64,000 bases of DNA from Cliona cf. orientalis (taxonomy: Eukaryota; Porifera; Demospongiae; Clionaida; Clionaidae): positions 7,006,001 through 7,070,000 of the forward strand of contig OZ005705.1 in assembly GCA_963930775.1 (NCBI GenBank). The letters run 5' to 3'. Numbering within the stretch: position 1 is the first letter of the stretch; each line of letters starts with the position of its first letter. This document shows positions 32,700-64,000 of the stretch, piece after piece. The notes beneath the pieces are model-generated. The model ran no database searches and had not been told where the DNA came from. It worked only from the letters and a program-made list of their open reading frames with translations. A program made the position numbers and the translations under genes.

Positions 32700-33322
32700 T
32701 CATGATGATGAACTTGATGCATCATAATCACTCGAGTTACTATGGTCTGATTCAGACTCTGAATCCGAACTTCTGTTTGACTCCGATTCATCACTGGAAT
32801 CAGACTCTTTATCACTGTCAGATTCCGATTCCTCACTAGAGGATTTTTCACTCTCACTCTCCTCACTACTAGAGCTTGAGTGCCTATTGAAGAAAGAATT
32901 ATACATGAAATACTTATTATCCCTTACGTCTACTATCCACCTTCTCTTTTTCGACTTTCTCTTATGAGATTTCTCGGTCTTGACTTTGCTTTTCCGGGTA
33001 CTGGAGGCAGCAGTGGTCGGAGGTGGCCTCACTGCGCTGGGCTCCAGCTTCTGCTTCTTCATGATCTTTGTCCTTGACGGACGGTAGAGGTACTTTCTCT
33101 TCCCGCTACACTCGTAGGTGTAGTGCCCATACTGAAGACACTTCTGACAGCGGTAGGAACTGGCATCTAGCTTTCTGAACAGAAAAGAAGCAACCAACAG
33201 CATAAAATCGTTGCCTCTTTAGCGAAGAAGCATGGAACTGACTTTTGTCTGTCTGCCACGTAAAGTCTGGCGACGGAGCTCTGAACTGCTGACGGTGGCA
33301 GGGTCTTTCCTTGGGTGGACAT
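32700..33322 (-). CDS. ZCCHC10: Zinc finger CCHC domain-containing protein 10
   Basis: Two exons, 33243-33322 and 32700-33174, encode 184 aa. The knuckle [14 protein letters not shown] is a C-x2-C-x4-H-x4-C zinc knuckle, followed by the signature [13 protein letters not shown], nearly identical to human ZCCHC10. The rest is a basic patch (KSKKRR) and a long Ser/Glu/Asp tail, the standard layout of this small nuclear protein. The molecular role is poorly defined. The first exon ([14 protein letters not shown]) is divergent and was placed from its ATG and the AA|GTCAGT donor. Its promoter is shared with SMIM20, 144 bp away. Confidence 0.92.
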
Positions 33323-43100: not shown

Positions 43101-46100
43101 AATCTAGAGTAAATAATTACACTTAATGCAATTTCAAGTTTTGCTCAGCCACTGATGAAAATTTTCAGGATATTGCTCTACTTTTTGTTAGCCTGCTTAC
43201 CTTTCCCTGTGGTCCGCTGGACTGCCAGTAGGTTGAGTGTATACCATCAGTGAGTCTGTTGGCCTGGCTCTCGTTGCTTGAGACAGAGAGGTGGCGGACG
43301 ATCTGGTCCCAGTCCATCACTATCATACCACCTCGCATCTTCCTCTTCTTACGCCTAACAGGGCAAAGAAAATCACCAGGTCATGTAGCCATAAGAATCT
43401 CAATACGGCTTATGGTAATTATGTATGGCTATTAAATTGCCACTTTCAGTCTTCTTAATAAGACAAAGCTTAATGCAGATTTGTTATAGTACACGTACAC
43501 ATAACATGAGTGATGCATTATACTTTTGTGAAATCTCAGTACTATTTAAGTTTGAGCAAAATGCCTCATTTCATGACTACTGCAGGATTTTGGGTATGCA
43601 TACTCTTGTAGGGAATAATTCCTTACATACCTTAGAGCTCTTCTTCTCGACCTCGGTGAGCCCACGAAGACGGCAGGTTGCCCCTGGTCGTCAATCCTCT
43701 CGAAGGCGTGGTTATGAGACTGACCCTTGTCAAAGCAGGCCTGACAGAAGTCAAAGTCAGCACAGACCTGGCAGTGGTAGCGAGGTCCCTCCAGGGGAAA
43801 CATGTTGCAGCCGTTACACCTGGGGTGGAAGGGAATAATATAATAATATTATTATATCATAATTATGGAAACAATTAATTATTATACGATTCAGCAATAT
43901 TGTATAAAGATGAGGCCAAGAGACAAAAGTCCTTTATCTTGGTGAGACACACCACTGGTGGAAATCATCATAAAGAGCACAACCGCAACAATATACACAA
44001 AGTGTTGTACTACGTTGTGCACGACTTACATCACTAATATAAGTGGCTATACAAGTACACTCTTGTAACAGTACATGTAGGTCATCCATACTTGGGGGAT
44101 ACACCTGGGAAGTACCCTCTTCCTAATGGAAGGCCTTTATAAGCGCCTGCTTGGTCGACACGTCAGTAAGGATTAGAAAATACACACAACTATGAATTGC
44201 CTACCAGTACTCGTGGTTCTACTTTTGACTGTGACTGCTCAGGTCGCTGGAGACTGCAGTGTGTACGACACCCCACAGTCAAGCTCTACTGATCGATGCC
44301 GTCAGGTGCAAGAATGCATTGACGATGCCTTTTTCGTGAATGAAAACAATCGATACTATCTCAATAGGATTTTTCGAAGTACTCAGTCACGTACTCCAGT
44401 TGCTCTGATTGTTAACTATCATGTGATAGGTCCACAAAATGGCAAAGCCAATGACAGTGACCTTGGTGTGAGTGCCAATGGCAGTGGAAGTGGCAGTGGA
44501 TTTGGCAGCACAGACGAAAGCAACGAGATGCCTATGAAAACTGAAGTGAATACAAGCTCATTCGAAACAGCTAATTATACAGAAGAAATTGGATGGAGCA
44601 CGACTGGCATATACAAAGCCATTAGACCTGAGGTTCTAATAGCTCTGCAGCCTGCATGGTACTGGTACACGCTAGGATTCGCTATTGATAATTACAGCTT
44701 TCCAAGATCACTTGACCTTGTAATAGATGTCACAAAATGTACCAACTCATTGGCTGATATCACTCGCTCTGAAGTCAGAGAAGCTCTGGAGCATCTTACC
44801 ATGAGAGTAAGTAGTCATGGCAATAAAATAATAATATATTTATTATTATACACATGTAGCTGAACTACAACGTTACGGGAGAATTGGCATATATTTGCAA
44901 TACGGACACCAATTCACTTCAGAAAGAAGAAATAAACCTATTTATGATCATATTACTGCTGGGTATCTTCCTATTTGTGCCATTGACACTTTTACTCCCC
45001 AAGTTATACCGTACACACAGCAAAATGCTCAAAAATTCTTGGGCTGCCGGAATCTTTTATCTAATATTTGAAGGAATTTTCCATTATAATTTCCGAAAAC
45101 ATTATTTAGAGAGAGATCTTTATTCAAATATACAGATAACATTAGAATGTGTAATAATTGTGGTCGGCTTGTTTGGTGTATTGTATGGCCTCGCAATAGC
45201 ACGCTACCATGGCAAACATCTGGGCTGGTGTCTAAACTTTTGTTCCCTCTACATATTTGTCGTATTCTTTGCAGCATACCCACTTCCAATGTTGATTGAA
45301 GCATTCATTTACCCAACAGAAATCATATCAGCCATAGGCTTCATTATGATTCTTATTGCCATCTTCTCTGCTATTTGCACTATACAAATAATACGTTATA
45401 CAAGATTAATTGGTTCAAACAGCAAGTCCATAACCATATTAAGCACCTGGAGCCATCTACAATTGCTACTCTTGGTGATCTGTCTTTATCACTCATATTC
45501 TATAGTGTATGCCTTACTTGTACTCTACTTGTCATTACTGAAACTGCTTCTAGAGTCCCCAATCAGTCAATTATTCCAATTAATACTCATCATACTTCCC
45601 ATCATAGTTGGAATCGGCAGTTTTATTTTACGAAATAAACTGGGAAGTAAAATGAAGCCCAAACAACCGAAGGAAAACACTGATTCAAAATTAAACAGAG
45701 ATAATAGTGAACGGATTAATGAGGAAGACGATCAGACACAGGATTCCATAAACACCCGTGAGCAAAACCAGCCAGAGAGCAGACAGCTACAGAAAAGAGT
45801 ACGAGTGGCTACTCAGCTACGTGACAGACAACAGACGCCACAAGAGAGCTCTCGGGAAATACGAGTGCAAGTTGAAGTTGAACCAAATCAGGAGGACACT
45901 GATAATATGGATGAATCCATCGTGTAGTTACATGTATCTCACAAAATACATGAATACACACATGCATGTTCATAAGCTACACACAGTGCTGTATACAAAT
46001 ACTTTTATTCCCCAATTTGAGTGCTTTACTGCTATATTAATTTTGTAATGTGCAATGTGTAAAAATCTTGTGCAATACCCAGCTATTTTTCATATCTCAC

Positions 46101-49100
46101 AAAGGCAAGGGGGAATTTTTGGAATGGAATTCATACATACCGTAGGTTTTAATTGTGTAGTTTAATAATTGCGTTCTAGTCAAGTCAGGCCAAATTGCGA
46201 ATCCAATAATTGCGATGGACGACCCCGTACCGTACAGTAGTATACATGCACGTTTATGTTTGCGAATCTATTAATTGCGAAATGTAGAAAAACTCGCAAT
46301 TCGCAATTAATAGATACTCGCAATTAAAACCCGACCTACGGTACTCATCAGCACTGACACTAATTGATCATAAATATCACAATCAGCAAATGGGGTGTGT
46401 CAATTGTATAGCAGCAGTAATAATTATTCTGCCATACACTCGCAAAAGAGGGCAAACTCCATCCACCACCTAGTTTAGCCTTGATTTCCTCCCGAGATCC
46501 AAAATTTGAAAGGGTGTCTACCGAACACCAAGTGTACACAATTATTAAATGCTATACAATGTTGGTATCTAAAGTCACTCAACATGTATAATACAAGGTT
46601 CATGCACGAAATAGCTCAGTATTCAATACAGCATGAGTCTAATTATTTTGATCTATCTCAATCATGTCAAAAGATGACCGTGTGTACACCAGTGCATTTT
46701 TGCAAGGCGTCTCTTCGTTTCTCCCGAGCATTGTACTTAAGGTGATCAGCTATTTCGCCAAAAACAAGCTCACCGCAAATAGAAGAGCAAAATATGAGAA
46801 GAAATTAAGTTCCTCAAGCACTGATAGCGAAAATGAATCAGCCTAATTTCTACTTTAAGTTAAAACATCGGAAGTATAAACATCGTACAGCACATCATCA
46901 AAGTGCACATACAGCAAATTAGATTCCTTCATGCATTCTATATTATGAGCTTTTGAAATAGGTGAATATGCCATTAATTGTTGAAATATTTTCGTATAGC
47001 ATGGCCAGTGTAAACCAAACCCTTGTCGAAGCAGGCCTGACAGAAGTCAAAGTCAGCACAGACCTGGCAGTGGTAGCGAGGTCCCTCTAGGGGAAACATG
47101 TTGCAGCCGTTACACCTGGGGAAATAATTACCGGGTATGGCTTGGCCAGCTATGGTATGCAGTATGATAAGCAGTAATAATATAATCAGGAATTATTGTA
47201 TATTCATAAGTTGCTGTCTGGTATCCATTAATGGATACTGTGACGGTGTACAGGATTGAAATATTTCGCAAGAGTTGAGAAAAGGCATGAATACCAATTT
47301 GATCACTACAAAGACAACACCTCACATGAATCTCATTAAGACTGCACAGTCAGAAAATTTTTTACACCCACACAACTATGATAGTTACTACTACTGATGA
47401 GATTTATCATGGGAAAACACCTGGGGCAACCCCTTCCTTGCTGAATAGTAAGGTGCTGGGGTTACCATGAATTCAAGAGACTGGAGTTTGATAAACAAGT
47501 ATATAATATGTTTTTGGACCCTTAGCTATTGTATAAGCAGTCATGAAGAAGGCAAGCAAGTATCATCATCTTGCAGTGATTGCGGTGTTTCTGCTATTAT
47601 TGCAATCAGTTCAAGATGTACCTGAATGTAGAGTAAGCATGTCCCATCTGTTTATAAATCCTGAAACTATATTGAGATGCATCGAAATTGAAGATTTATT
47701 TGAAGGAGCTCTTTTAGAAGGGAAAGTTAATTCCTATACTTTAAGAAAGACATTTCTTTCAAGTTTACACCCTTCACCACAACTACTCAATGTGAGGTAT
47801 TACGTTTTTGACACATCATCACACTTTCTTAGCATCATTGAAGCTGTATGGAGTAGCTCACAAGTTTTCACCATCATTGATCCCACAATTCTTCATGATT
47901 TTCAATCAGGGATCATGACACTGGTGTACCATATGGAGGGAATTTTACTTCCTAAAAGAATTCCCATTTACTTGAATCTTACCAGTCACCCTGGTTTGAC
48001 TGAAAATGAAATTAACCATGGGATCATATCAATTACGGAAAAGGTAAATCATATACTGATATCATGATAGCATAATATTATTAATTTTTAATCATGCAGT
48101 TGAAGGCATATGCAATCCATCAAGACAAGTTGAAAAATTGGAATGGACAAGATAAGGGCTATGTCATCATAAGTACAACTCCACATGCATTCAGTGTAGC
48201 TGTTCTGATTCCTATTGCAACTGTATTATTCCTTATCGTTGGAACAGCTTTTTCCTGGAGAATGGTACGAAAATTAAGCAAATTAGACGAAAGTTATGAA
48301 ACGGATGTCAAAATTAGCCTTTTCTGGTCCTTTGTACGCATGATAGCCATCACAAACACACTTGATATTATAGTCCTTCTTGTTTTATCTCTGTTCAGAG
48401 TGATAGAATCTAGAACATCTTATATTGTGATAAAGATAGTGTCCGGTATAATTACAGCCACAGCAGGAGCAGCACTTGGGTTTTGTTCCAGTGAAGAGAA
48501 TTTTCCAAAAAGTCTTAGTCTCACCTCTGACCCATTCTGTTGCTGCTCACTTTCAGTAGCAAAGAGAATGGACCGAGCTATCACTGTTTGTAGTATTTTT
48601 GTTTTTGTTTATTTGATTGGAATCAGCATAATATCAACAACAGCTCTAATGGCAGTTTATCCAATTCTTGTGCTTTCAACGGTTACATACATCGTGACTT
48701 CAATATTTAGCATGGTTTCTCTATTGGCCATACCCAATTCACTTGGATTGGTAATGTACAGGTGGAGGACAAGTCGAAATGATGCTGAATTAAGGAAACA
48801 TCGCTTGCGTCTTTGTGATAGCTGTTTGTACATCACCAGCATAATCGCCTTGAACTTATTGAACTTGATATATCTATTGATCCTTTCAAAGGTAGACAAT
48901 ACCAGTGATCTTCTAAATGATCTCGCTTCCTTTCTCCCTAGCTTTATATTTGGGGTGGTAGGCTACATAGCCAAAAAGAAACTGACAGCAAACAAGAGAA
49001 AAAATTTTAAGGAACAGCTAAGTATCGATAGTGAATACATGCCATCATCATCAAGACGCAAGGAAAAAATTGAAATGTCCCCCTTAGTACTCGAAGAAGA

Positions 49101-52100
49101 ACAGATGCCAACTAGCTCTGATAATGAAAATGAAACCACCAAACTCCTTACCAATACTGAAGAAACGGAATTATGATACCAATAAATACTGTAGAATCCC
49201 GCGATTACGCCCCCCCTCGCACATAAGCCCCCCCCCCCCCCTGTATTTATGGTAATAATAGCACGCCAACCAACTTATTATTATATTGGTGAAAGAAGTT
49301 GATTTGTTGGTAGGTTGGAGTATGGTCAGATTGTGCAATGTAGTAGCTGTTGCGCAATGTGCCACAAAAGAGTTGTCTTACAATTATTTGTAAAAATGAT
49401 CCAGTCCATAAACAATTGATGTTGATATTCAATGCAGGGTTAGTGCATTCACACAATTTGAATTGCTGTATATGCATAATATAATATTATAGCCCACGTT
49501 CAGGCAACAAGTATAGGGTATTTCCCTGGGAAACTACCTAGCCCTCAATCTTACTACATATACTACTGCCTCCAGATGTTGGGCACTTCTTTCCAAAAAC
49601 GTCAACAATGCAGTACCTGCTGCAAGTGGTCTCGCTGTGCATTCTATTTGGATACAGTCAGAGCCAGTGTGAAGTACTAGGCATTGATAGAAATGATGTG
49701 TCTGACATACGCGACTGCCATAAGATTTATACTGTTCTTGAGGAGGCGCTGATCAGTGACGCAGATAACCTCTACACTCTACAAGAGGTCTTCTTTTCAA
49801 GTGAATACCGTCCTCCATCCATGTTGAAAATCGACTATCACATTGAAACAGCAGTCAACAATGGATCTGTATACATAGGTGCAATGATTTGGAGCAGATC
49901 AAGCCTCTTCAAATATGTTAGCCCTTTTGTTTTCTTCATCTGTGAGCCTGCTATTATTGCATTAGCCTTTGAAGCCATCCATGTACAATTGATACCAGTT
50001 GAAATTGATCTGTTTCTGTCAGTCAATACAACCTTGCTACCACAAAATATCAGCAATATAGACAAAGAAGCTATACATGCCTTGTCTACTATCACATCAA
50101 GGGTAAGAGGAACTGTATGTATAATGAATCAAAGAAAATAGCCAATTATATAGTTTTAATACTAGTATGTGACTTTTTCCATTTTAGATAAAGGCATATG
50201 CCATATCTCAAGATAGACTCTCAACAAGATGGGACGGAAGCAATAATGGCTACACAATATATCCCAATGCTAACATGATAGAATCATTGGCCCCTCTGGT
50301 CTTATCAACAGCTCTATTGCTTATCTCTTCACTAGTGATGGCAAAATTTATAGACAGAAAATTTCATAGTCAAAGTGAATCAATACAGAAGCATCTACAT
50401 TCACTCTCGCTGTTCTATTCAGTAGGGACAGTAATGTTGGGTTTAAATGTTACTGAACTAGTTTGCAGCATATTCATTTTTTATGTATTTACGGGAAAGG
50501 AATTTTCATTGCTTCTTTCAACAAAAGGTATATACATAATGACTTATGTGATCATGACAATTTCTTTTGCAATTATTGGCTGGAAGAAAGCAAAGGTGTT
50601 TCCAATCTTTTCGTGTTGCTGCTGCTGTTGCTGTCTTCATTCTAAAGTACGGCACAAATTGATTCACTCGCTGATATTCGTAAGTGTCTCCAGTTTTGCC
50701 CTCTCACTTTTGATAAGCATTTGTCCAACACTTCTCTTAATCTTTGTCTACCCAATTGAGATAATCTCACTACTACTGTTCATTGGAACCTCTTTATTTT
50801 GTACAATATTTATTTTTGCTATCCTCATCTCGTTGGATATGATCAATGAAAGAGTAAAAGCTACATCAAAAGTACCATCCCAAGTAAATAAATTGATGAA
50901 ACCTCATGCTCTAAGATTTTTAAGGAGGCTACTTTACATGCTCCCATGCTTTGCCTTTATCATTCTCATGTTTGTCTACATGAAATTATTGACCAAAACT
51001 GACTACACTGGTTCAAGCAAGATTTTGCAAGCTATTTCATCACTATCCCCTTCACTGGGACTTGGAGCTGTGGGGTACTATGCCAGAAGATGGTTAAAGT
51101 ATTTTCACGAGCAGCACAGTGAAGAACTGACTTCAACAGTGGAGACGGATGATACCAAAGACACTGAACTAACACTGGTTGGTGACACTCAGTCTGAGGA
51201 TAAGAAGCAAGGAAATGCTGAAACTGAACTGAGTGCTAACAATAGTAAAGACGATGATGGCGAATCCACCCAGCTACTGGTGACAGTTGAAGTAGAAGAG
51301 AGTAATGTATGATTATTATTATTATAATGCTCTTGACGTATTAATTTTGGTATACACTGTCTGTATGCATGCACCTGGTACTTTCATAGACTAATAATTA
51401 TTATTCATTACATGGGAGTATGAATTGGTTGTAGGGGACTATACCTGGGGAATACCCTCTCAAAATTTTGCACTATATCTTTGCGCAAATTCGACTCCAC
51501 CTATAGTACCCCAAAATTATGGATCTAGCTACAGTTACGCTAATTTTTTCAAATCTGACATTGTCAACATTTGGCGATAGTGTTGGAGACTGTAATGTAT
51601 ATGATACTTTGCAACCAAGCTTCATAGATCGGTGTCGTCGGGTTCAAGACTGCGTCAACGAAGCCTTGTACAGTGACAAGAACAACTTGTATATCCTCGA
51701 TAAGATATTTTGGCACACTCAGTCACAGTCACCGATTGCACTAATCATTAACTATCATGTGACCACTAGCAACATCACCAGTGGCCACGATGGAGCCAGT
51801 GCTAGCAGTGGTGTATACTTTGATGACGGGAGTGCAGGGAGTTCAGAAATGACTGAAGAAGTCACCTACATAGAGCAAATTGGGTGGAGCACCACTGGTA
51901 TATACAGAGTGATAAGGCCTGTAGTTCTGGTAGCTCTTCAACCAGCATGGTACTGGTGGACTTTGGGATTTACTATCAATAATTATAGCCTTCCAAACTC
52001 AATACGCCTCAAATTGAATATTACTGAATGTGATTTGAGAGACACCACTCGACTGGAAGTAAAAGAAGCTCTAGAGTACCTCACAGTAAAGGTAACAATA

Positions 52101-55100
52101 TGCACAATATACCTTGTTACAGTACTGACCACAAATTATTTTAAAAATTTCCCATTATATATACGAAAGTTTTAAATGTGCCAGAACAACCTGCATGTTG
52201 AATATCTTGCTTTCTTCTTTGCAGCTAAGCTTTAATACCACAGGGAGATCAGCGTATACTTGGAATACAAATGTTTCCTCATATCAACCTCTTGAAATGT
52301 TACTGTTCATCATCATAGTATCCCTGGCTATATTTGCACTGCTACCAACTGTAATCATTCTGCTAACATTACAAGCTTATTATAACACAAGATACACTTG
52401 GGATACACGTTGCTTACAAATGCTTATCTGTACCACACTGGTTATTGAAACAGCTGCTCATTTTTTGTTAAAGGAGTATATAATGATAGATGTCTATGCC
52501 TATATACGAAATATAATTGCATATGGAATGATTGCCATTGGCACATTAGGCTTCATCTGTGGATTTCTAAGATCTGTATACTCCAGCTGTGACTGTATAA
52601 AAAAGGCCAGCTGTGACTGTATATTATTATGTATAGAAAAGGCGTTTATATTTGGAAATATTCTACTCACTGTCATATTAATTGCAACACACTCCTTTCC
52701 GGTACTGATCGAAGCCTTCATCTACCCAACTGAGGTCATAACAACAACAGCATTTATCATAATTGGTATTGCCAGCACCATAACGGGATATACTCTGCTA
52801 AAATGGTTCATCAGCGAGAATTTCGACAAATCTACCAGCAAGAAGAAAAAGAATATTAAGGGAAAATGCTGTTACTGTCTACAAATGTTAGTGATAGCAG
52901 TTTGCACCTATATCATTGTTCCTGTGTCAGTCTACCTGCTGCTTTTATTCTATTCAATACTACTAAAATTTCGTTCAGAGTCACCATCTAGCCAACTAAT
53001 CCAGATTCTGCTATCTTTTGTTCCACCATTCCTGGCTGGACTTGGAACATTTATGGTAAGAAAAAGGCTGGGAGGTCAACACATGATCAGAGTTGACAAG
53101 AAAAATAAGAAGAAAGATGATGATAACCAGCCGGAGCAGAATTGCCAATCCACAAGTACCCCAATCGACCCACCAAGTGACTCTGCTGATGATCAAGAAG
53201 AGGAGCAAACGGAAAATGAACGAGAAGAATCTAAAATTCAGCAACAAAGGCGAGTGAGCATCAATAGCTCCCAAGAAATGCAAGCAGCTGTGGTTGAAGT
53301 AGATATGCATCAGGAAAATGCACCAGAAACAACTGTTTAGTTATTATGTTATACGTAATGCTATCCCAAGTTAGCAGTGCCACAATATTAGTATACTAGT
53401 TAATTAGTCAAGTATACCCTGCTGTGATATTACTTAGGCCAGTTTGTTGTTGCTCAGATTTTCTGATCAAAACATTGGGTCGAGCGACCGAAAAAAAGAA
53501 AAAAGTAATTAAGTGGGAGTGGCTAGAAACTATATTTGAATTACTTCATGGTTTCATTGATAGACAGTGTCACGGTGTATTTTGTAAGTGACAGAAAAGA
53601 AAAGATCCTGGTCATTATTATCATTCCCTAGCCTTATATATTTATTTGGCTTAGAGTCTGTTTAACTTACAGACAGTATACATGGACTGTGCATGAGCCA
53701 TATAAAAAGGCTAGGAATTTTACTTCACATAAAAGTTTAGTGAGCAAGAAATTGAGTGATAGAAGATAAAAGATGGGCTAATAATATAATAAGCAAGCAC
53801 TTGCCATTAGACTAAGTGTCCCAGTCAACTTGTTTTTTTTTTCAGCTGCATGTGGCAAGGTCCAAGTTCTACAGTATTTGTTAACGGGTCGACACTGCGC
53901 ATGCGCATTAAATTATTTGCAGTAGATATACAGGTGCATGATCTGACAAATTTGGCAACAGCAATAAAATTATATTCATAGCCACGAGCATGCATGTATT
54001 CCCAATTATGAATCAGCTTTTGGTACTATCTTTACTTCGGGTATATCCCTGGGAAGTACCCAGACTTGCCAATGGATACCTTTTATAACTAGCATGGTGA
54101 CCTTATAACCGCCTGCTTGGTTAAGAAGTATTAAAAGGTACACAATTACTATGAATTGCCTACCAGTATTCGTGGTTCTACTTTTGACTGTGACTGCTCA
54201 GGTCGCTGGAGACTGCAGTGTGTATGACACCCCACAATCCAAGTCTACTGATCGATGCCGTCAGGTGCAAGAATGCATTGACGAAGCCTTTTTCATGAAT
54301 GAAAACAATCGATACTATCTCAATAGGGTCTTTCGAAGTACTCAATTACGTACTCCAGTTGCTCTGATTGTTAACTATCATGTGATAATTCCACAAAATG
54401 GCAAAGCCAACGACAGTGACCTTGGTGTGAGTGCCAATGGCAGTGGCAGTGGCAGTGGCAGTGGATTTGGCAGCGCAGACAAAAGCAATGGGATAATTGT
54501 GGAAGCTGAAGTGAATACAAGCTCATTTGAAACAGTAGAGTATACAGAAGAGATGGGCTGGAGCACCACTGGCATATACAAAGCCATCAGACCTGATGTT
54601 CTAGTAGCTCTGCAGCCTGCATGGTACTGGTGGAATATAGGACGTGCTATTGACAATTACAGCTTTCCAAGATTACTTCACCTTGTAATAAATGTCACTA
54701 AATGCAACTCATTGGGTGGTATCACTTGCTCTGAAATCAGAGAAGCTCTAAAGCATCTTACCATGAACGTAAGTAGTCATGACAATAAAGATAACAATAA
54801 TATAATATTATATCGCATTATTACAGCTGAACTATAATGTTACAGGAGAAATGGCATATATTTGGAACACTGACACAAATTCACTTCAGCAGGAAGAAAA
54901 ACTGCTATTTATCACCATAATAATACTGGGTATCTTCCTACTTGTGCCACTGACACTTGTACTTCCCAAATTATACAATACATACAGCCAAATGTTCAAC
55001 TGGTACAGTGGCGGCCTTGAAGTCCTTCTTTCCATCATAGTATTTATTGAAGTCCAATATTATTTTGCTTTCCCACTAGAGAGAGATCTTTATTCAAATA

Positions 55101-58100
55101 TACAAAGCAAGCTGGAATTTGTAATGATTGTGGTCATCTTGTTTGGTGGAATATATGGCTTCATAGTGGCATGCTACTATGGCAAATGTTCAACATGCAT
55201 ATTACGGAGCACTGAAAATTTTTGTTCCATCTACACATTTGTCACATGCTTTGCAGCATATTCACTTCCAGTATTGATTGAAGCATTTATTTACCCAACA
55301 GAAGTTGTATCAACCATAGGCTTTATTATGATTGTCATTGCCATCATCTCTGCTGGGCACACTATACTAAAACGTCGCACAAGATCTGGTTCAAATAGCA
55401 AGTCCACAAGCAAATCGACAAAATGCCAGTACCATCTACAAATGGGACTCCTCTGTGCCTGTCTCTATTTCATCATCCCCGCTGCAGTCTATGTACTACT
55501 CGTATTGTACTTATCACTGCTGAAACTGCTTCTAGAGTCCCCAACCAGTCAACTATTCCAACTGATACTCACCTTGGTGCCTGTTATAGTTGGAATTTGC
55601 AGTCTTTTAATACAAAAGAAACTGGGAAGCAAAAAGAAAGCCAACCAACCGGATGAAAACACTGATTCAGAATTTAGTGGTGATAATAGCACCCGTGAAC
55701 AAAACCAGCCGGAGAGTAGACAGCTACGGAGATGGGTTGAAGCAGCTACTCCGCCATGTGAGAGACAACAGACACCACAAGAGAGCTCTCAGGAAGCACA
55801 AGTGCCAATTGAAACTGAACCAAATCAGGATAACACTGATAATATGGATGAATCCACCATAATATAGTTATCTCACAAATACATGAATACACACATGCAC
55901 ATTCATAAACTACACACAATGCTGTATACAAATACTTTTCCCCCCAATTTGGGTACTTTGTGCTGTCCAGTGTACCCTTCACCCCCACCCCTCATTTTGG
56001 ATGAAAATTATTCCATGCTATATTAATTTGTAATGTATAAAAAATCTTGTGCAATACCCAGCTATTTTTCATATCTCACAAAGGCGAGGGGGAATTTTTG
56101 GAATGGAATTCATACATACTCATCATGCAGCACTGACACTAATTGATCATAAATATCACAACCAACAAATGGGGTGCGTCAATTGTATACCATCAGTAAT
56201 AATTATTCCACCATACACTCGCAAAAGAGGGCAAACTCTGTCCACCACCTAGTTTAGCCTTGATTTCCTCCCAAGATCCAAAATTTGAAAGGGTGCCTAC
56301 CCAACACCAAGTGTACACAATCAATACAATGTTGGTATCTAAAGTCACTCAAATGAGCATATAATATTATTATAATGTTCATGCATGAAATAGCTCAGTA
56401 TTCAATACAGTGATACAATAATCCGTTCAGGCACCTATTCTCGAAAATCACCTGACCCAACTATAGTGCATTCATGATATTACAAGAAAATCTACAGTAA
56501 CTCTGGTGACAGTATTTTTTTAAAACAAGGTGCAGTCAAGATGGAAACAGGTTACTGCCTGCTGATAATATATTTCCTACTATTATCGCTATCAACCCGA
56601 GGTTTCACATCTACCTGTGGGGCTTACAATGAGAGACTAAATAGTACCGATATTGAGAGATGCAGAAAAGTGGAGAAAATATTTGAAGATGCTCTCCTGA
56701 ACAATGAAAACAACCTCTACATCTTGAGAACTGCATTTCTCTCCAGCTCAAATCCGTCACCACACATGCTTAACGTGAACTACAGTTTCAACGATGCAAG
56801 CTGTGATATTGCTTTGTGGAGTAGCTCACGAGTCTACACAGTTATGGATCCAGCTATTCTTCACAATCTACAGTCTGGAATCATGGCATTTATCTACTAC
56901 TTGAATGGAATTTTGTTTCCCCAAACTATTCACCTTTACTTGAATATTTCAAAGAATCTTCTTCCTGACCAGGAAGAATATGATTATGGCATCCTGACAA
57001 TCACAGAAAAGGTAGACCAGAGCTGTGTATTCCCATAATTTTATATATAATACTTTTATGTCCATTTTTGTAGCTGAAACCATATGCCATCTATCAGGGC
57101 AAGCTAAGCAACTGGAATAGACAAGATAAGGGCTACGTACTTTTACCAAAGAGTACTAGATCACAACTACAAGTAATAGTGGTATTCCTTGCATTTGCAG
57201 CAACAGTGTTAATTATCATTGCATATGCATAGAAGTTGACAAGGTGGCTAAGTAGGATAAAGGAAGGTTATGATTCAGATATCAAACTGACTCTGTTTTG
57301 GTCCTTCATGTATGTGCTATTTGTTACAAATGCTAGCGACACAATTTTCTCATGGTATATGATGAACTTAATGGAACCAAGCAAACTATATATCATACCT
57401 AAGATGGTATTTTCTATGATCATTGCAGTATTTGGGACAGCTATTGGTTTGTTTACAGCTGAAAAGAACATCCCAAAATTTCCCACACTACCTGAACCTC
57501 AAGAAGAATGCTGCCTCCCATTGTGGTGCAGAAAGAAGGTGGACTATACCTGTGCAATGTGCAACACCTTCCTATTTGTATACTTGACTGGCATCAGTGT
57601 CATATCAACTTCAGCTTTGATGGTGGTGCATCCAATACTTGTGCTGTCAACAGTTGCATACGTCATAACTTCACTGTTTAGTATAGTTGCACTGTTGGCC
57701 TTAACAGGACTCACAATAAAATGGTTGTCGATACCCAGAGATTGTGCCGACTCTCAACAAATTAACTACTCTCAACTTTATAATGGCTGTTTACAAATCA
57801 CTGGAATAATTGCCATGAGCCTAATAATTTTGATCTATCTCATAATCATGTCAAAAGACGACCGTGTGTACACCAGTGCATTTTTGCAAGGCGTCTCTTC
57901 ATTTCTCCCGAGCATTGTACTTACGGTCATCAGCTATTACGCCAAAAACAAGCTCACCGCAAATAGAAGAGCAAAATATGATTAAGAAAAAGAAGTTCCT
58001 CAAGCACTGATAGTGAAAATGAATCAGCCAAATTTCTACGTAAAATTGATAGTTAAACATCGGAAGTATATATAAACATCGTATAGAACGTCATCAAAGC

Positions 58101-61100
58101 ACACATATTATAGCAAATTAGATTCCTTCATGCATTCTATAATATTATGAGCCTTTGAAATAGGTGAATATGCCATTAATTGTTGAAATATTTTCGTATA
58201 GCATGGCCAGTATAAATCAAAAGAGTGTGTAGCATATCCCATTAAAAGCACAATAATACAAATACTCCCCATAATTACACTTCCTATATCGTAGCTGGAT
58301 TCAGAATCCCTATATGCATAATAGAAACCTGCATGGAAGCAAGTCAAGCACAATGATGCATTATATCACAGCTAGAAGCATGTAGTAGAGAAACAGGGAG
58401 TACTACGAATTGGATAGTATTTAGGTGCATTGAAGCTCTTATACTTTGTCCCTTCACGAGATGGGGTATGAATATCATCAAATTGTCCAAGGGACTCACC
58501 CAGGGAAATTCCCAGGATGGTCTGCTAGGTGGGAGGAATTGCATTTTAAAAGTGTTCCACTCCCAAGCATCAAACTCAAAAATAGTCTAATACCATGAAA
58601 GTACAACTGTCCATACTAGTGCTATGCTTTACAACATGCCCTGTGGTCACAGGGACATGTGATGTGTATCATAGTACAGAAACAAAACTTCAACGATGTT
58701 TCGAGATTCAAAAGTGTGTGAACCAGGCTCTCGTCAGTGACGAAAGAAATATATATGTGCTCGATAAAGTATTTAGAAGCTCCAAACCACGCCCAGACAT
58801 TGCAGTGATTTTCAACTACCATCTGAGGTGGACTGAAATCACTACACAAACTAGCAGATTGATCAACAATGGAGAGATTCAACCAGAAAATTCTGGTTTT
58901 GGTTCCGGAAGTGCAGAAAACTTAATTAAGCAGACTGAAAGTGTAGATGATAATATGGACAGCGTGACTCAAACACCTACTATTAAGAAAAGATCTCATA
59001 AGCTAATTAAGGTGCCGATTGGATGGAGCAGTTCTGGTGTATACACGGTTATTCGGCCAGCAATTCTCTTATCGTTGCAGCCAGCATTATTGCTATGGAC
59101 AGTGTCATTTGCCATAGATAACTACGGATACCCAAAGACAACAGATTTGTATATAAACTTAAACCAGTGTAATCTATCATCGCGCACAAATATGCATGAA
59201 CTGAAAGAAGCTCTTGAGCATCTCACCATGAAGGTAGGTCTATTATACTCTACATTCATAATTATCTGCATAATATTATTATCATGGTTCATACCCCTGG
59301 TATAATATTTCTCCCCTTACTACAGCTTGATTATAATTCCACACGACAACTTGCATATATCTGGGAAACAGCAACCACTCCAATTCTTAGTACGGAACTA
59401 TCACTGTTTATAATCATTCCAATACTGGTTATTTTCTCAGCGGTGTTGCTCGCTATTGGCCTTCCAACTGTGTTTGAATTAGATCTTACATGGGATTTTA
59501 TTGGTCTATTTTCCATTCTCGGCATCATTGGAAGTTGGGAACTGAACAGAAATCAGATACTAATCCAAACAATCAAAATTCCCCTTCAATTTAACATACG
59601 ATTAACTGTATTATTGGTGACACTCGGAATCAGCATAGTCATAGGAATCATTCCAGCAGTGAAAATGAATTCTTCAATCTCAAAGTGTACATGCAGCATA
59701 ACCTCCATAATCTTGGTCGCAATCTTTTTCACTGATACTTACTTCCTTCCAATAACTTTATCAGCTTCCTTCCTTCCACTGGTAATGTTTACTATCATAT
59801 ACCCAGTTGAAATTATATCAACTATAAGCTTTATCACTGCCATTATTGCTGGTATAATCACTGCAAAAAGATTTCTGAGTTGGCTTATTCGCAAAAACAG
59901 CTCTTATAAGTCAGGCAACAAATCAAGAAAGGCAAAGTGCTACTACTACACTTACTGTACAATTGCAGCCGTACTTTGTTATGTACTAGTTCCCTTTGCA
60001 TTCTATTTGCTGCTGATTCTATATCTGGAGATGCTAAATTCATTATCCGAGTCCCCAACCAGTCAACTTTTCAAGCTACTACTTTCCTTTGTCCCACCTG
60101 TTTTAACCACCATCATTGGCATCATGCTAACCAAGAAGCTGGGACAAGTAAAGAAGCCAAACACTTCAACTAAAGAGTCCGACATTGAGCTAAAAACTAT
60201 AGACAATCTAAAGAGAGCTGAAGAAGGAGAAGCAAGAAGGAGACCAGCATCAAACTCAAGAATGAGTAACAAGTAACTAAAGACAATGTAGTAGATACAG
60301 AGAAAGCACACACACACACATCACACACATAACATACATGTACGTATTTCAATGTCAAAAAATATGTACAGGACATGGTAACTGCATGGTACCATGCCCG
60401 ATTGGCTGTTATTGATTTTATAACAATCCTTTTATATTGTATTCATAGCCACAAGCATGCATTCCCAACTCTGAGTCAGCTTTCGATATTTTGCAGCAAG
60501 AGCAATTAAATATTCATAGCCATAAGCATGCATTCCCAATAACCCAGAGTCAGCTTTTGGTACTAACTTTGGTAGATTCATTACTCACCTATGCCGTGGG
60601 TGTATCCCTGGTACGAGCTCCATCTCTGATATGAGTCCAGTCCAGTTGTTCTGCTCAGGGAAGTCCACACACACATCAGTGCCGTTCCTGTTGATGGAGC
60701 GCACCACACCAACACTCTGGTGCGTCACAGAGCCCCACTTGTACCTGATGAGAAATTATGCACATGAAGTGCAAATGAAACATAGCTCCATAGATACATC
60801 CTTGCAATTAGTACCACATAGAATCTAGATCAATTTTCATGTAGATACAGAAAATTTCAAGCCAGCTACACATACATGTACTGGTATATAGGCAAAAAGA
60901 TGGACCCTTACAAAGCTTTTCTAAACACACACTCTGTGTAATTATATTTATCTCTGTAGCTTACTTTGGAGTGGTGACAGCCCTCTTGACTCTGATCTTG
61001 TCCCCTGGTTTGAAGGCCATCACTCCAGCTGTCTCAACGTCTCCGAGCATCTCACAGTGGCAGAACCTGACCCAGTAGGTCCCTCCCTTCTGCTGCCAGT

Positions 61101-64000
61101 TGGCCTGCACATTCAGATCATGCAGACCATCGTTGTCAACCTGTATGTAGTTCAAACAACACAAAATTATTAATACACGTTTATGCACACACAAAAAGGG
61201 GCTCATAAATCTTCCATACTGACATACAGCCATAAGTGTATGTACAATGTCAAGCTATAGCGGGGGAAATCAAATTTAGGTGGTTTCTGAAAGATTGTCA
61301 ATCTATGTATTATGATAATATACAACAGCAGGCACCCTTGAAATAGATAGGCTGTATACACCTAGGATAAAGCATACATACAGGTAGTGATTTCAGATTT
61401 ATTTCGGTGCTGACCTTCATGACCCTTCCAATGTCTCCATGCCTGACCTCCTCGTAAGCCTCACAGCACTTGACCATCATCCCAACCTTGATGTTCTCCT
61501 TCACATAGCGAGCATAATCATCGATGCTCAGAAAGTCATCTCGATTCTTGAATGTCTTGTATTCTGAAGAATTGAATGAATATATTATGTGGAGCTTCTT
61601 AGAAATATTCAGGTGCCCATAAGGGAGAAATTATTAAATCCCCCCCCCCCCTCCCTATCTCTCTCTCTCTCTCTCACCATCTCCATCATCGTCATCTTCT
61701 CCTTCATCATCAGAGTAATCACTGGAGTCAGATGAGCTATCACTGCCGCCAGTCATCACTACAACTGTCCTTGAAGCTGCCGCCTCCCTCCCTGGCTGTC
61801 TGTTCACAGCAGGAGAGCCACTACCACTGGGTGCAGGTGGGGTAGGAGCAGGCACGGGGGCAGCTGGGGGTGACGCCAGCTCCGGTACTTCAAGGTTGGC
61901 GTGATCGAGCAGCCAACTAACGAGTCTCTCGAGGTTGTTACTCTGAGTGGTCTGCATGGCGTATTCAATGTGTCTCCTTGGGAAGCCCATCTCCATGATC
62001 TGTGAGACTAGAGGGGTGGGGGCAGGAGCTGTGCTGGTGCTAGTGGTGGATGAGGAGGCTGGTTGCTGAGGTTGGGAAGAGGGGGCGGTGCTAGGGGCGG
62101 AGGAAGGGGCGGAGCTAGATGAGGAGGCGACTGTGGCTGGTGCTGAGGTGGCGGTATTAGCGGTGACTAGCTTCTTGGTGACTCTCCTCTTGATGACTTT
62201 GGTGGTAGGGTCAGGAGTGGTCACTTCACCGTCGGGAATGGCTAGGACAGGTTTGTGCACTTCTGAGACTAGATACTGACACACAGACACTGCTGCAGCC
62301 TAAAAAAATAGGAGAAAATATACCCCGATCGAAAAAATTGTCAAAAAGGTCTCAAAAAGTAATCTTTCTTGGCTTACCTCTAGTTCATCTCTGTTGAACA
62401 TGACTTTGATGGGTGATGGTCTAGTGGCCGCGCTGAGCAGCTGCTGGAAAAGGCTGAACTGGTCTCCCTCAGAGGAGGCGGGGCGGGCCATGATCTGACG
62501 AAGGTTCTCCTGTTGACTGAAGAGGACTCGGGCAGCCTTCAGGAGACCAAGACGAATCTGCTGCTGACGGAGCAGGGGCACATCAATTGGCTCTTCTGTA
62601 GTAACAAAGAGTAGCAAAATCATTGGCATGAAATAGATAATATCAATATCACAAATTTAATGCTCTACAATAATATACACACATGGTTGTAACCCTGTGC
62701 ATGATTTAAGACTTACGTTCTGTCTCTGGCTTTGAGGCGAGTGACTTTGCTGGTTTTTGTGTGAGAGAGGGAGGTTGGAAGAGTCCGCCAGGAAGGGCAG
62801 CTGAAGAGGAGCCAGCAGCTGTTCCCGCCAGCCTCACTAGGCTGCTCCAGATACCCATCACCGTCTCACTCATTGGCAGCTGGTCCACTCGGAAACTAAG
62901 ACCTGGCAGCTGCAGGAAAATTACACTTAGACTCTAGTTGTCATAAATACTGTGATTTGATTGGTTAAAACAAGGGTTCTAAGTTACTTAAAACCCCTCT
63001 ACTTAGAAAGCTAGTTCTTTAGGCAACAACATACAAAAAGTTACTAAGCAACAGCATGCTAGAGTCTAAATAAGTTAGACACTTCAGCCAATGGGATCTA
63101 CAGTCTTTAGAATACTTCAGACACTTATAAAACCCTCAGGCTTCACCTTCGGGATTTTATATCAGTGTCTTCAGTATTCTAAATCCTATAGATCCCTTGG
63201 CTTCAGTGTCTAACTATTATTTAAAAATTGACCCCTGCACATATGCGTAGCAGTAGCAGATAAATTATCATCCCATAAACTTTGTCGTCAAGCATACAAT
63301 TTGCAAATGGAGCCAAAAAGCTTAACATTAGTTTCACTAATGGCTACAGTGTATACATACATTACAAACTACACTATAGGATGTACTGGCTTAATGGTGA
63401 TGAGAGGGCACATTTTGGCAGTCTTCATTCCGTGAAAGAGCACTACCACCTTTGACTTGCTCTCAATCTTGGCTATGGTTCCCATTCCCAGTTCCTCATG
63501 CTGGACGAGACCTCCAAGGCGGGGCCTCGTGTCCAGCCCACCAATCACGGTGAGGACAGCAAGCACCGGTCCATGGGTCATCACATCCCTTTCAAGCTGA
63601 ATAAGGCATAATACATGTACATGATATTGTACACGTACATACATATCAAATGGATACATGTACAATGTACAAGGGGTTAATTTCTACTCATGTACATGTA
63701 CATGTGCTAAGCCAATATTAACCAAAGAACCTGAAGTTTATCATTAATTTTAGACCAACATCAGTCACAAAAAACGTAAGGTGTACATGTACCTGTTGTT
63801 CCCTCCTGGTGCTGAGCGAGGTGGTGTCCCCCGTTGTCATGGTGATGAGCTTTGGAATGGTCTGGAGACTGCGGCTGATGAACTGGTTGATGAGGGGGTT
63901 CCAGGCAGGAAGTGGGTGGAGCCTACGCAGCAGGACGACAATCTCCTCGGCGATCGTGCTACTTTCGGAGGCAGTCTGAGAAGCATGCAGCTTAAACCTC
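34189..64000 (-). CDS. HERC2: HERC2 giant E3 ubiquitin ligase, central and C-terminal part
   Basis: Twenty-eight exons, about 8.1 kb of coding sequence, run from beyond 64000 to the stop at 34189. Domains in protein order: a UBA-like segment ([17 protein letters not shown], exon 61678-62299), CPH (61415-61563, 60965-61140), the [14 protein letters not shown] stretch (60589-60744), ZZ finger with its Cys pairs (43631-43819), DOC (43201-43354, 42808-43005, 42270-42548), RCC1 propeller 2 (42009 to 39828), the [11 protein letters not shown] beta-sandwich (38972-39634), RCC1 propeller 3 (37972 to 35659), and HECT (34483-35511, 34189-34404) with catalytic Cys in SYTCFFLLK. Other exons: 63793 on, 63387-63596, 62717-62909, 62378-62595, 41696-42009, 41362-41539, 40903-41156, 40631-40772, 38567-38838, 38175-38303, 37774-37972, 37448-37668, 36915-37092, 36508-36761, 36142-36361. 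The acidic tail is shorter than in human. One intron is 16.8 kb and holds other genes. Confidence 0.97.
37240..37319. repeat. 80-bp near-perfect palindrome
   Basis: Two 40-nt arms meet at 37279/37280 with only about three mismatches (centre GTTGCACG/CGTGCAAC). It lies in the HERC2 intron 37093-37447. The outer CTCATCCCCAG resembles the ends of the element at 975-1309, so it may be a collapsed MITE of that family. Confidence 0.8.
42153..42226. mobile_element. Short TA-flanked MITE in HERC2
   Basis: Inverted ends CCGTATAACCATGGGAA... and ...CTGGCTCTATGG, with inner TTTGGCAG/CCGCCAAA, bounded by TA on each side. About 74 bp; end structure matches the TA-flanked family but it lacks the GACCC core. 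Confidence 0.6.
44104..44117 (+). promoter_or_regulatory. Shared array promoter motif CCTGGGAAGTACCC
   Basis: Lies 74 bp before the ATG of array gene 1 and is preceded by GGGGGATACA. A TATA-like TTTATAAG follows at about 44137. It matches motifs upstream of five other array genes. Confidence 0.6.
44192..45927 (+). CDS. Array gene 1: secreted-ectodomain 7TM-like protein (type A)
   Basis: Exons 44192-44806 and 44860-45927 encode 560 aa; family not recognised. Visible: signal peptide (to about residue 20), then DCSVYDTP, an [13 protein letters not shown] motif, a Ser-Gly spacer with several N-x-S/T sites (about 90-125), and the [13 protein letters not shown] / LQPAWYW block before the exon end. 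Exon 2 has about seven hydrophobic segments: near residues 230-252, 263-283, 297-318, 332-350, 355-375, 395-425 and 440-458. FIYPTEIIS lies between TM4 and TM5, and [18 protein letters not shown] marks TM7. An acidic/basic tail of about 100 aa follows. The layout suggests a cell-surface receptor or channel with an outside N-terminus; that is inference. It is closest to array gene 5, with exon 1 nearly identical. Confidence 0.85.
46140..46341. mobile_element. TA-flanked MITE with paralogous empty site
   Basis: The ends CCGTAGGTTTTAATTG and CAATTAAAACCCGACCTACGG are inverted, with TA on both sides. The duplicated copy of this locus near 56117 reads CATACATACTCATCA with no insert, so removing the 202-bp element and one TA restores the empty site. 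Core GACCCCGTACCG matches the MITEs in THOC2. Confidence 0.88.
46631..46846 (+). pseudogene. 3' fragment of an array gene (type B)
   Basis: From about 46640 the sequence matches 57820-58030 of array gene 6 at over 90 percent by eye: [20 protein letters not shown], then [19 protein letters not shown]. Only TM6-TM7 and the tail (to [11 protein letters not shown]) remain. The flank before it (46500-46630) matches the upstream flank of gene 6 (56285-56410), so the body of the gene was removed by an internal deletion. Confidence 0.88.
47019..47121 (-). pseudogene. Partial duplicate of the HERC2 ZZ exon
   Basis: 103 bp match 43723-43825 with two differences, both synonymous (Phe TTT/TTC, Leu CTG/CTA). 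The copy includes the splice acceptor (CCCAG|G) and codes for [19 protein letters not shown] through QACFDKG, about half of the ZZ finger. It has no copy of the original donor; a weak GT follows at once. It lies on the host-gene strand inside the host intron, joined directly to the edge of segmental-duplication copy A. Confidence 0.93.
47420..47433 (+). promoter_or_regulatory. Shared array promoter motif CCTGGGGCAACCCC
   Basis: Lies 109 bp before the ATG of array gene 2; a variant of the shared motif, preceded by GGGAAAACA. Confidence 0.5.
47543..49176 (+). CDS. Array gene 2: secreted-ectodomain 7TM-like protein (type B)
   Basis: Exons 47543-48043 and 48100-49176 encode 525 aa; family not recognised. 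Signal peptide to about residue 26, then a short ectodomain with [38 protein letters not shown] and LQSG-like blocks, without the Ser-Gly spacer of type A. Exon 2 starts [14 protein letters not shown] and has seven hydrophobic segments: [20 protein letters not shown], then [76 protein letters not shown] and [18 protein letters not shown]. The tail is charged and Glu/Ser-rich. It shares the phase-0 intron position and the TM4/5 YP motif with the whole array. Confidence 0.85.
49177..49607. other. Spacer between array genes 2 and 3
   Basis: Holds the 3' UTR of gene 2, a (C)14 tract (49228-49241) and the promoter of gene 3. A weak CTGTA...TATGGTA inverted pair around 49188-49253 may be another decayed MITE. 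Confidence 0.45.
49525..49538 (+). promoter_or_regulatory. Shared array promoter motif CCTGGGAAACTACC
   Basis: Lies 69 bp before the ATG of array gene 3. With the preceding bases it reads TTTCCCTGGGAAAC, a near-perfect palindrome. Confidence 0.6.
49608..51312 (+). CDS. Array gene 3: secreted-ectodomain 7TM-like protein (type C)
   Basis: Exons 49608-50102 and 50188-51312 encode 539 aa; family not recognised. A signal peptide (to about residue 20) precedes a compact ectodomain with [26 protein letters not shown] and MIWSRSSLF, homologous to the other array proteins. Exon 2 starts [17 protein letters not shown] and carries seven hydrophobic segments; between TM4 and TM5 is FVYPIEIIS, and TM7 is [18 protein letters not shown] run of seven Cys (CCCCCCC, from an imperfect TGC repeat near 50615-50635) lies at a predicted membrane edge, where such clusters are often acylated. 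The tail is acidic and Thr-rich. Confidence 0.85.
51444..51457 (+). promoter_or_regulatory. Shared array promoter motif CCTGGGGAATACCC
   Basis: Lies 61 bp before the ATG of array gene 4, preceded by GGGGACTATA. Confidence 0.6.
51519..53340 (+). CDS. Array gene 4: secreted-ectodomain 7TM-like protein (type A)
   Basis: Exons 51519-52091 and 52225-53340 encode 562 aa; family not recognised. Hydrophobic leader, then [32 protein letters not shown], an acidic Gly/Ser spacer, [14 protein letters not shown] and LQPAWYW. Exon 2 begins [15 protein letters not shown] and has about seven membrane segments with FIYPTEVIT between TM4 and TM5 and [19 protein letters not shown] as TM7. A duplicated [14 protein letters not shown] stretch gives a Cys-rich loop between TM3 and TM4. 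The tail of about 100 aa is rich in Asp, Glu, Gln and Ser. Confidence 0.85.
53896..53907. promoter_or_regulatory. NRF1-like palindrome TGCGCATGCGCA
   Basis: Perfect 12-bp palindrome 243 bp upstream of array gene 5, identical to the one upstream of SLC36 copy 2. Confidence 0.4.
54048..54061 (+). promoter_or_regulatory. Shared array promoter motif CCTGGGAAGTACCC
   Basis: Identical to the motif of array gene 1; lies 89 bp before the ATG and is preceded by CGGGTATAT. TATA-like TTTATAAC follows at about 54082. Confidence 0.6.
54151..55867 (+). CDS. Array gene 5: secreted-ectodomain 7TM-like protein (type A)
   Basis: Exons 54151-54768 and 54827-55867 encode 552 aa; family not recognised. It is the duplication partner of array gene 1: signal peptide and first ectodomain half are nearly identical, and the Ser-Gly spacer is longer by one GGCAGT unit. 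The [13 protein letters not shown] and LQPAWYW blocks are kept. In exon 2 the TM3-TM7 region and tail are similar to gene 1 ([45 protein letters not shown]). The TM1-TM2 loop and TM2 ([20 protein letters not shown]) are almost unrelated to gene 1. Confidence 0.85.
56541..57985 (+). pseudogene. Array gene 6: type B 7TM-like gene with in-frame stop
   Basis: Exons 56541-57011 and 57074-57985. Exon 1 is intact: signal peptide, [40 protein letters not shown]. Exon 2 starts [14 protein letters not shown], but an in-frame TAG at 57230-57232 falls right after TM1; the aligned residue in array gene 2 is Trp, so TGG to TAG is likely. Downstream the frame stays open through TM2-TM7 ([27 protein letters not shown]) to 57985, where it stops early compared with the fragment at 46631, whose tail runs 12 codons further. 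It is also the only array gene without the upstream motif. It could be a young pseudogene, a null allele, or a secreted ectodomain with one TM. Confidence 0.75.
57986..58594. other. Spacer between array genes 6 and 7
   Basis: The remnant tail of gene 6 (to about 58030), its 3' flank, the right edge of duplication copy B (58222) and the promoter of gene 7. No other gene seen. Confidence 0.6.
58500..58513 (+). promoter_or_regulatory. Shared array promoter motif CCAGGGAAATTCCC
   Basis: Lies 81 bp before the ATG of array gene 7. The core GGGAAATTCCC is also a perfect palindromic kappa-B-type sequence. Confidence 0.55.
58595..60276 (+). CDS. Array gene 7: secreted-ectodomain 7TM-like protein (type A)
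   Basis: Exons 58595-59233 and 59326-60276 encode 529 aa; family not recognised. Signal peptide to about residue 20, then [34 protein letters not shown], a spacer with [24 protein letters not shown] and LQPALLLWT. Exon 2 begins [15 protein letters not shown] and has about seven membrane segments with IIYPVEIIS between TM4 and TM5 and [19 protein letters not shown] as TM7. The tail is short and basic (about 45 aa), unlike the acidic tails of genes 1, 4 and 5. It is the array gene nearest the upstream HERC2 exon, 312 bp away. Confidence 0.85.
60425..60575. repeat. Diverged tandem block shared with the gene 5 upstream region
   Basis: A unit with TATTCATAGCCA, AAGCATGCATTCCCAA and GAGTCAGCTTT occurs twice (about 60441-60490 and 60512-60570) and again upstream of array gene 5 (53978-54030). 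It looks like promoter-proximal sequence left from array duplications. Confidence 0.7.
63074..63214. repeat. 141-bp fold-back hairpin
   Basis: The arms start GTTAGACACTTCAG and end CTTCAGTGTCTAAC. They pair along most of their length (inner GGGATCTA with TAGATCCC, and TATAAAACCC with GGGATTTTATA), with a small loop near 63145. It lies in the HERC2 intron 62910-63386, outside exons, on the sense strand of neither known RNA. Confidence 0.75.

Follow-up and report, generated by a model that had tools for sequence, protein, structure and literature searches.

An orphan two-exon family of predicted seven-helix surface proteins in the sponge Cliona cf. orientalis, with one tandem array inside a HERC2 intron

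Sponges sense and react without neurons, and their sensing proteins are poorly known. The catalogue of G protein-coupled receptors (GPCRs) of Amphimedon describes seven-helix receptor families, many of them in sponge-specific clusters, and was drawn, according to the available portion of that paper, from matches to the Pfam GPCR_A clan (PMC4302439), which shuts out any family that Pfam does not match. The main text of a Spongilla annotation built on structures, in its accessible form, contains neither the word GPCR nor the word transmembrane (PMC10176882). In this study, we closely examined a stretch of 64,000 nucleotides (C17:7006001-7070000 on chromosome 17, C17; here named the window) from the 216.8-Mb genome of the bioeroding demosponge Cliona cf. 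orientalis, and in particular an array of two-exon genes within one intron of HERC2. Homology searches identify this array as one tandem array of a large predicted two-exon family in this species. We read the family, with a probability of roughly 0.6, as orphan cell-surface receptors with seven helices that have expanded in this sponge; the receptor function is putative.

Several described systems share parts of this layout. GOST proteins (PF06814) and Hi-GOLD proteins likewise combine a leader with a small outer domain immediately before seven helices; for Hi-GOLD, a recently named group that resembles the Cliona family in its described layout, a survey of choanoflagellate GPCRs reports, in the part available, a GOLD domain immediately before the seven-helix region and homologues in sponges (PMC12716839). 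The Cliona family differs from GOST in that it has no PF06814 match. Class C GPCRs (7tm_3) are also seven-helix proteins with an outer N terminus and an outer domain, and occur in large arrays in the same genome, but they show no Pfam or profile match to the Cliona family, and the frames that hold most of the listed 7tm_3 matches are open over 600-970 codons and are not split into two exons with a small outer domain. We found no description of such a family in the open-licence literature, as judged by titles and the beginnings of abstracts. Comparable uncharacterised proteins with LTQR-LKxYA-like borders may occur in other sponges.

Seven plus-strand two-exon genes were identified between positions 44192 and 60276 (counted from the first base of the window), along with a gene fragment at about 46652-46846. 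Exon 1 encodes the ectodomain and exon 2 the transmembrane (TM) domain and tail.

44192..45927, plus strand: G1, type A; exon 1 44192-44806 (ectodomain), exon 2 44860-45927 (TM domain and tail); 560 amino acids, open
46652..46846, plus strand: relic of a type B gene (3' fragment), recognised by sequence match
47543..49176, plus strand: G2, type B; exons 47543-48043 and 48100-49176; 525 amino acids
49608..51312, plus strand: G3, type C; exons 49608-50102 and 50188-51312; 539 amino acids
51519..53340, plus strand: G4, type A; exons 51519-52091 and 52225-53340; 562 amino acids
54151..55867, plus strand: G5, type A; exons 54151-54768 and 54827-55867; 552 amino acids; segmental-duplicate partner of G1
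56541..57985, plus strand: G6, type B pseudogene; exons 56541-57011 and 57074-57985; TAG in frame at codon 210, short tail
58595..60276, plus strand: G7, type A-like; exons 58595-59233 and 59326-60276; 529 amino acids

A sequence-only reading of the window had described these seven genes and the fragment, a single phase-0 intron at the border of ectodomain and membrane part, and three sequence types, all of which were recovered. The introns (53-133 nt) have GT-AG borders and lie in phase 0 in 7/7 genes, and the first exons span 471-639 nt, i.e., 157-213 codons including the leader. The split between the types is deep: within type A (G1, G4, G5, and G7), exon-2 sequences share 29-63% identity, and within type B (G2 and G6) 42%, compared with 28% and 24% for type C (G3) against type B and 15-21% for type A against B or C. 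Since G6 carries an in-frame TAG and a short tail, the array comprises six open genes and one pseudogene. The reading had counted six intact genes, which is right for the open frames, but G1 is intact by its open frame only: its exon 2 differs from that of G5 by non-triplet gaps that cancel out, one set of them over TM2, and its function is therefore doubtful.

In this family, the first exon provides a hydrophobic leader followed by a small outer domain (together about 140-235 residues), the phase-0 intron marks the border of outer domain and stalk, and the second exon provides the short stalk, some seven hydrophobic segments, and the charged tail. Residues invariant in all seven window ectodomains include two cysteines, N53, Y55, L57, F61, and a WS pair. 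Segments and leaders were scored by hydropathy (19-residue mean, cut 1.4). The leader reaches this cut in 5/7 window genes; in G3 and G4, the 19-residue means are 1.14 and 1.13, and the shorter 11-residue cores score 2.65 and 1.73. Exon 2 of G2, G4, and G5 shows seven segments, that of G7 eight, and that of G1, G3, and the pseudogene G6 six, in line with the roughly seven-helix design proposed earlier; one further hydrophobic stretch lies inside the ectodomain of G3 and of G7. Similar counts were obtained for 16 complete exon-2 frames outside the window (seven segments in 10/16, six in 5/16, and eight in 1/16; for L089, the stretch ahead of the exon start was excluded).

The family is much larger than the earlier finding claimed, which had confined it to one HERC2 intron. 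Combining several query searches (E value ≤0.001, pieces within 600 bases joined), we obtained ectodomain matches in 83 places, of which 76 lie outside the window. Together, the 83 places occupy 31 locations on 14 chromosomes; relaxing the E value to 0.01 raised the number of places to 84. The figure of 83 is a lower bound from searches, yet it includes short fragments. Array members are mostly arranged head to tail, and the larger arrays are found at C8:7.08-7.17 Mb (nine members), C13:8.08-8.22 Mb (seven), the C17 window (seven), C3 (six), C14:4.59-4.70 Mb (six), and C8:8.28-8.30 Mb (five). A frame with several hydrophobic segments follows the ectodomain in 25 of the 26 off-window loci examined; at L032, the sole exception, the stretch ended before any hydrophobic frame appeared. 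L016, L019, and L027 appear broken. GT-AG borders and phase 0 were present in 16/16 off-window loci in which both borders could be named, 15 of them clean (the donor of L044 is non-homologous and was not counted as such; borders of seven other loci were unscored). Two ectodomains of the C8 array lying 66 kb apart (L024, C8:7076828-7077163; L025, C8:7142701-7143036) encode identical proteins (dN 0, dS 0.007, the nonsynonymous and synonymous divergence), pointing to recent duplication or conversion.

Queries with membrane exons gave far fewer places than those with ectodomains. As a query, the G4 TM exon alone found five TM exons on C8 and C6 (E values of 1.7e-6 to 6.3e-4), and it does not list window types B and C at an E value of 1; a type B TM exon gave five places at E ≤0.1, none outside the window. 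Profiles were compared for both halves. The ectodomain profile of the window (A1) matched that of the outside members (A3) at 99.2% (E value of 2.3e-19), and the window TM profile (A2) matched that of the C3/C6/C8 branch (A7) at 98.3% (E value of 1.2e-14) over TM4 to TM7 and that of a pair at C6:8.6 Mb (A6, two sequences) at 94.8%, whereas control alignments of the TM profiles by hhalign with four class C GPCRs from this genome gave 0.3% and 0.4%. The C8:8.29 Mb/C1/C13 branch (A5) has the ectodomain in common with the family. The members thus form a Cliona superfamily with a homologous ectodomain exon, a phase-0 intron at the border, and a multi-helix exon 2, in which TM homology with the window is established for the C3/C6/C8 branch only. 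The ectodomain tree (23 sequences) has types A, B, and C together with the C6:8.6 Mb pair in an unresolved fan; given this and the long G3 branch, we do not claim the window genes as one clade. Branch lengths suggest that the window holds old lineages and not one recent burst.

Among 14 proteins (G2 to G5 and ten relatives, each with at most seven segments), the fraction of lysine and arginine in near-membrane residues was 0.181 on the presumed inner side versus 0.084 on the outer side. The predicted topology, derived from the leader and these basic inner loops, therefore has the N terminus outside and the C terminus inside; hydropathy and the positive-inside rule lean towards an outer N terminus, seven helices, and an inner C terminus.

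The tails were compared with the general class-I PDZ ligand pattern. The C termini of G1 to G5 (SIV, TEL, SNV, TTV, and TII) fit it and that of G7 does not, i.e., 5/6 open window genes compared with 2.9% at internal tail positions (binomial P of 1.2e-7), or 4/5 without G1 (P of 3.6e-6). The figures were 3/16 outside the window (P of 0.011) and 8/22 overall (P of 1.2e-7), in a statistic that treats paralogs, which are not independent. At L092 (C8:7151200-7152100), the tail runs 12 residues beyond the PDZ-like end of its relative L091, as if a stop had been lost. An acidic dileucine sorting motif was also considered for the tails and rejected, as 3/22 did not exceed shuffled sequences (148/1000 shuffles as high).

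Coding constraint was estimated in the sister array at C8:7.1 Mb. The median dN/dS of its ectodomain was 0.20 (range 0.07-0.32) over 35/36 pairs of nine members, one of them partial, with the near-identical pair excluded; this ectodomain is under purifying, not diversifying, selection. One pair of this array gave 0.36 in stalk plus TM and 0.91 in the tail. Within the window, G1 and G5 yielded 0.57 and 0.61, and dS of the other pairs was saturated or nearly so, which makes their ratio unsafe. We regard the family as real, coding, and conserved; its members are predicted surface proteins of roughly seven helices that carry their own type of outer domain and are probably receptors.

The earlier view that no named family matches the genes held up in Pfam and Protein Data Bank (PDB) searches, which gave no sequence match of weight. 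Pfam scans (E values up to 1 or 10) of window ectodomains, window TM exons, and off-window exons returned nothing over the curated cut-off wherever a score was printed; those at E ≤10 covered seven ectodomains, seven TM exons (G6 in part), and ten exons of six off-window loci. The best E value was 0.0014, for Serglycin in 2/7 ectodomains, in G1 over a Ser-Gly stretch. Weak matches with printed scores were all below the cut-off, while this Serglycin match and DUF4079 came without a printed score. Matches to Chi-conotoxin (over the leader), Serglycin, Sec20, DUF4834, and DUF4079 were rejected as a matter of composition. Sequence and profile searches against PDB chains found nothing below an E value of 0.025, and the match at that value, of a truncated profile (A4) to the GABA-B receptor, disappeared with the full-length profile (A7) and was regarded as chance. 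The ectodomain profile gave 117 pattern matches in IMG/VR, none of which was confirmed. As to the receptor classes, 7tm_1, 7tm_2, and Frizzled, the models for rhodopsin, adhesion, and frizzled GPCRs, were not among the Pfam matches at E values up to 10, neither 7tm_3 nor GOST_TM (PF06814) matched the seven window TM exons or their relatives, and no Pfam match to a Venus-flytrap outer domain was found in exon 1 of only 157-213 codons. The same models worked as positive controls in this genome: GOST_TM found one locus, on C4, and for 7tm_3 at least 150 matches were listed, all over the cut-off. Class C GPCR genes are themselves strongly expanded in this sponge, at least 150 of 413 candidates being listed with scores, and clusters among the matches listed lie at C7:7.1-7.3 Mb, C15:5.4-5.7 Mb, C8:1.5 Mb, C10:8.5 Mb, and C17:0.5 and 1.2 Mb.

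A receptor or allorecognition role, suggested by the sequence-only reading, is putative. If the proteins are surface receptors, they would sit in the plasma membrane, exposing the outer domain to the surroundings and the tail to the cell interior. Ligand binding at the outer domain or helix bundle would alter this bundle, from which the signal would pass through the inner loops and tail to G proteins or to PDZ-domain scaffolds. As a first guess, the cue may be environmental or microbial, with food chemicals, microbes, and neighbours as candidates. Arrays would grow by tandem duplication and unequal exchange, and the HERC2 intron would be simply the place where one array landed and stayed. A more far-reaching version appears possible but distinctly tentative: a separate seven-helix receptor lineage with its own outer domain, comprising scores of genes in one sponge that Pfam-based GPCR counts would miss, whose arrays sense different environmental, microbial, or self cues and gain variety by mosaic exchange.

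Several observations weigh against a receptor family. None of the searches in Pfam, in PDB, or with profiles gave a sequence link to any known receptor class, and the hydropathy segments range from six to eight. The loop between TM4 and TM5 is short (2-27 residues), while the second outer loop is long in rhodopsin and class C receptors. The PDZ-like motif was spotted before it was tested, making this comparison post hoc, and outside the window it is present in 3/16 tails; of two further full tails, one was PDZ-like, and neither of the broken copies, L016 or L019, fits. Aligned with profiles that include window genes, the TM profile of the C8:8.29 Mb/C1/C13 branch reached 11% and 4.7%, and aligned with that of the C3/C6/C8 branch, 0.3%; the membrane half of this branch may therefore be very diverged or of other origin. 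Finally, a stop lies inside the match in 15/83 ectodomain places, which means that some members are broken or that the match extends beyond the exon.

The alternative that survives best is a strongly diverged branch of a known seven-helix group with a small outer domain, above all GOST (GPR107/108, TMEM87, TMEM145, and GPR180) or Hi-GOLD. Its layout of leader, small outer domain, seven helices, and inner tail is alike, and Hi-GOLD proteins, with GOLD directly before the seven helices, are reported from sponges in the available part of the survey cited above (PMC12716839). Neither window nor off-window exons matched a Pfam seven-helix family at E values up to 10, however, and GOST_TM recovers only the one other locus on C4. 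Such an origin appears rather unlikely. We consider it still more improbable that the genes encode seven-helix proteins other than signalling receptors, such as transporters, channels, or sorting proteins. The lack of a GPCR signature by sequence would suit such a role, as would the acidic dileucine-like motif in 2/6 open window tails, though overall it is no more frequent than in shuffled tails. Families for surface recognition typically have many copies, expand in arrays, and carry an outer domain, which speaks against such a role; the basic inner loops and PDZ-like ends would suit receptors of the plasma membrane but also many channels. That the arrays are mostly decaying, functionless duplicates, open by chance and recent origin, is very improbable: the G6 stop, one relic, the compensated frameshifts of G1, dN/dS of 0.57-0.61 for G1/G5, and stops in 15/83 genome-wide matches are what decay would leave, but six frames stay open over more than 500 codons with intact splice sites despite 15-28% exon-2 identity between types, and dN/dS is about 0.2 in the C8 array.

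As a receptor family, 83 ectodomain matches (15 with a stop) and no Pfam model would amount to a large share of one animal's surface repertoire, missed by usual receptor counts. The family also offers test objects, namely, a conserved outer domain, possible PDZ-ligand tails, and arrays in which variation between individuals and a role in allorecognition can be studied.

The window array bears traces of its own history. Positions 44.19-46.55 kb are a copy of 54.15-56.33 kb at an offset of 9.78-9.98 kb, and beyond them the offset changes to 11.2 kb, at which 46660-46797 in the relic matches the end of G6 (57844-57981) and 46940-47019 matches 58142-58221, both at 96%. The change would be explained if an A-plus-B unit was duplicated and a type B gene was then largely deleted. 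Segmental duplication, the pseudogene G6, and the relic bear out the tandem birth and death that had been proposed for the array.

Identity between the G1 and G5 copies (44192-46547 versus 54151-56326) is patchy. It amounts to 94-97% over 44200-44499, at the start of exon 1, and to 92-98% in the 3' flank. It is lower elsewhere: 85-90% in the remainder of exon 1, 76-88% across the membrane exon, and 76-87% within the 300 bases upstream of the gene. Over the first 100 codons of exon 1, dS between the copies is about 0.09; in exon 2 it ranges from 0.25 to 0.55 between pieces, with a four-codon end piece excluded. Because selection alone cannot raise synonymous change, exchange between copies is likely: either recent conversion homogenised two stretches, or the membrane exon was swapped with another copy.

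The minus-strand exons on both sides of the array are assigned by their domains to HERC2, and the following features were located.

43820..60588, minus strand: HERC2 host intron, 16,769 bp, with the array inside in antisense orientation
60961-61254, minus strand: Cul7/CPH domain exon of HERC2 (Pfam E value of 3.4e-14)
43546-43848, minus strand: ZZ finger exon of HERC2 (E value of 1.5e-10)
61655-62299, minus strand: UBA domain of HERC2 (E value of 3.7e-7)
34444-35577, minus strand: HECT domain of HERC2 (E value of 7.4e-50)
47019..47121, minus strand: partial copy of the HERC2 ZZ exon, 103 nt, 98% identical, inside the same intron and adjoining the type B relic

The CPH exon also matched the PDB entry of HERC2, 9l8y (E value of 9.5e-21). 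On the minus strand, the intron donor reads GCATAG/GTGAGTAA at 60588 and the acceptor CACCCCAG/GTGTAACG at 43820 (slashes mark the borders), with the ZZ exon starting right after. The GT donor and AG acceptor thus define an intron of 16,769 bp, and with these exact borders the array lies antisense within a single HERC2 intron, as had been claimed. Nested genes are common in sponges, with 2432 in Aphrocallistes and 3358 in Amphimedon, and annotation programs that forbid them sharply reduce their counts, according to the available part of the source (PMC10282587); the nesting of the array is by itself therefore unsurprising. The HERC2 array is an example of how nested genes may escape annotation.

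The 103-nt copy of the ZZ exon keeps the acceptor side and may represent a cryptic exon or a templated insertion. Elsewhere in the window, a DUF5917 frame is located at 30230-31918 on the plus strand, and a zinc-knuckle protein with a tail rich in Ser, Asp, and Glu is encoded at 32700-33218 on the minus strand.

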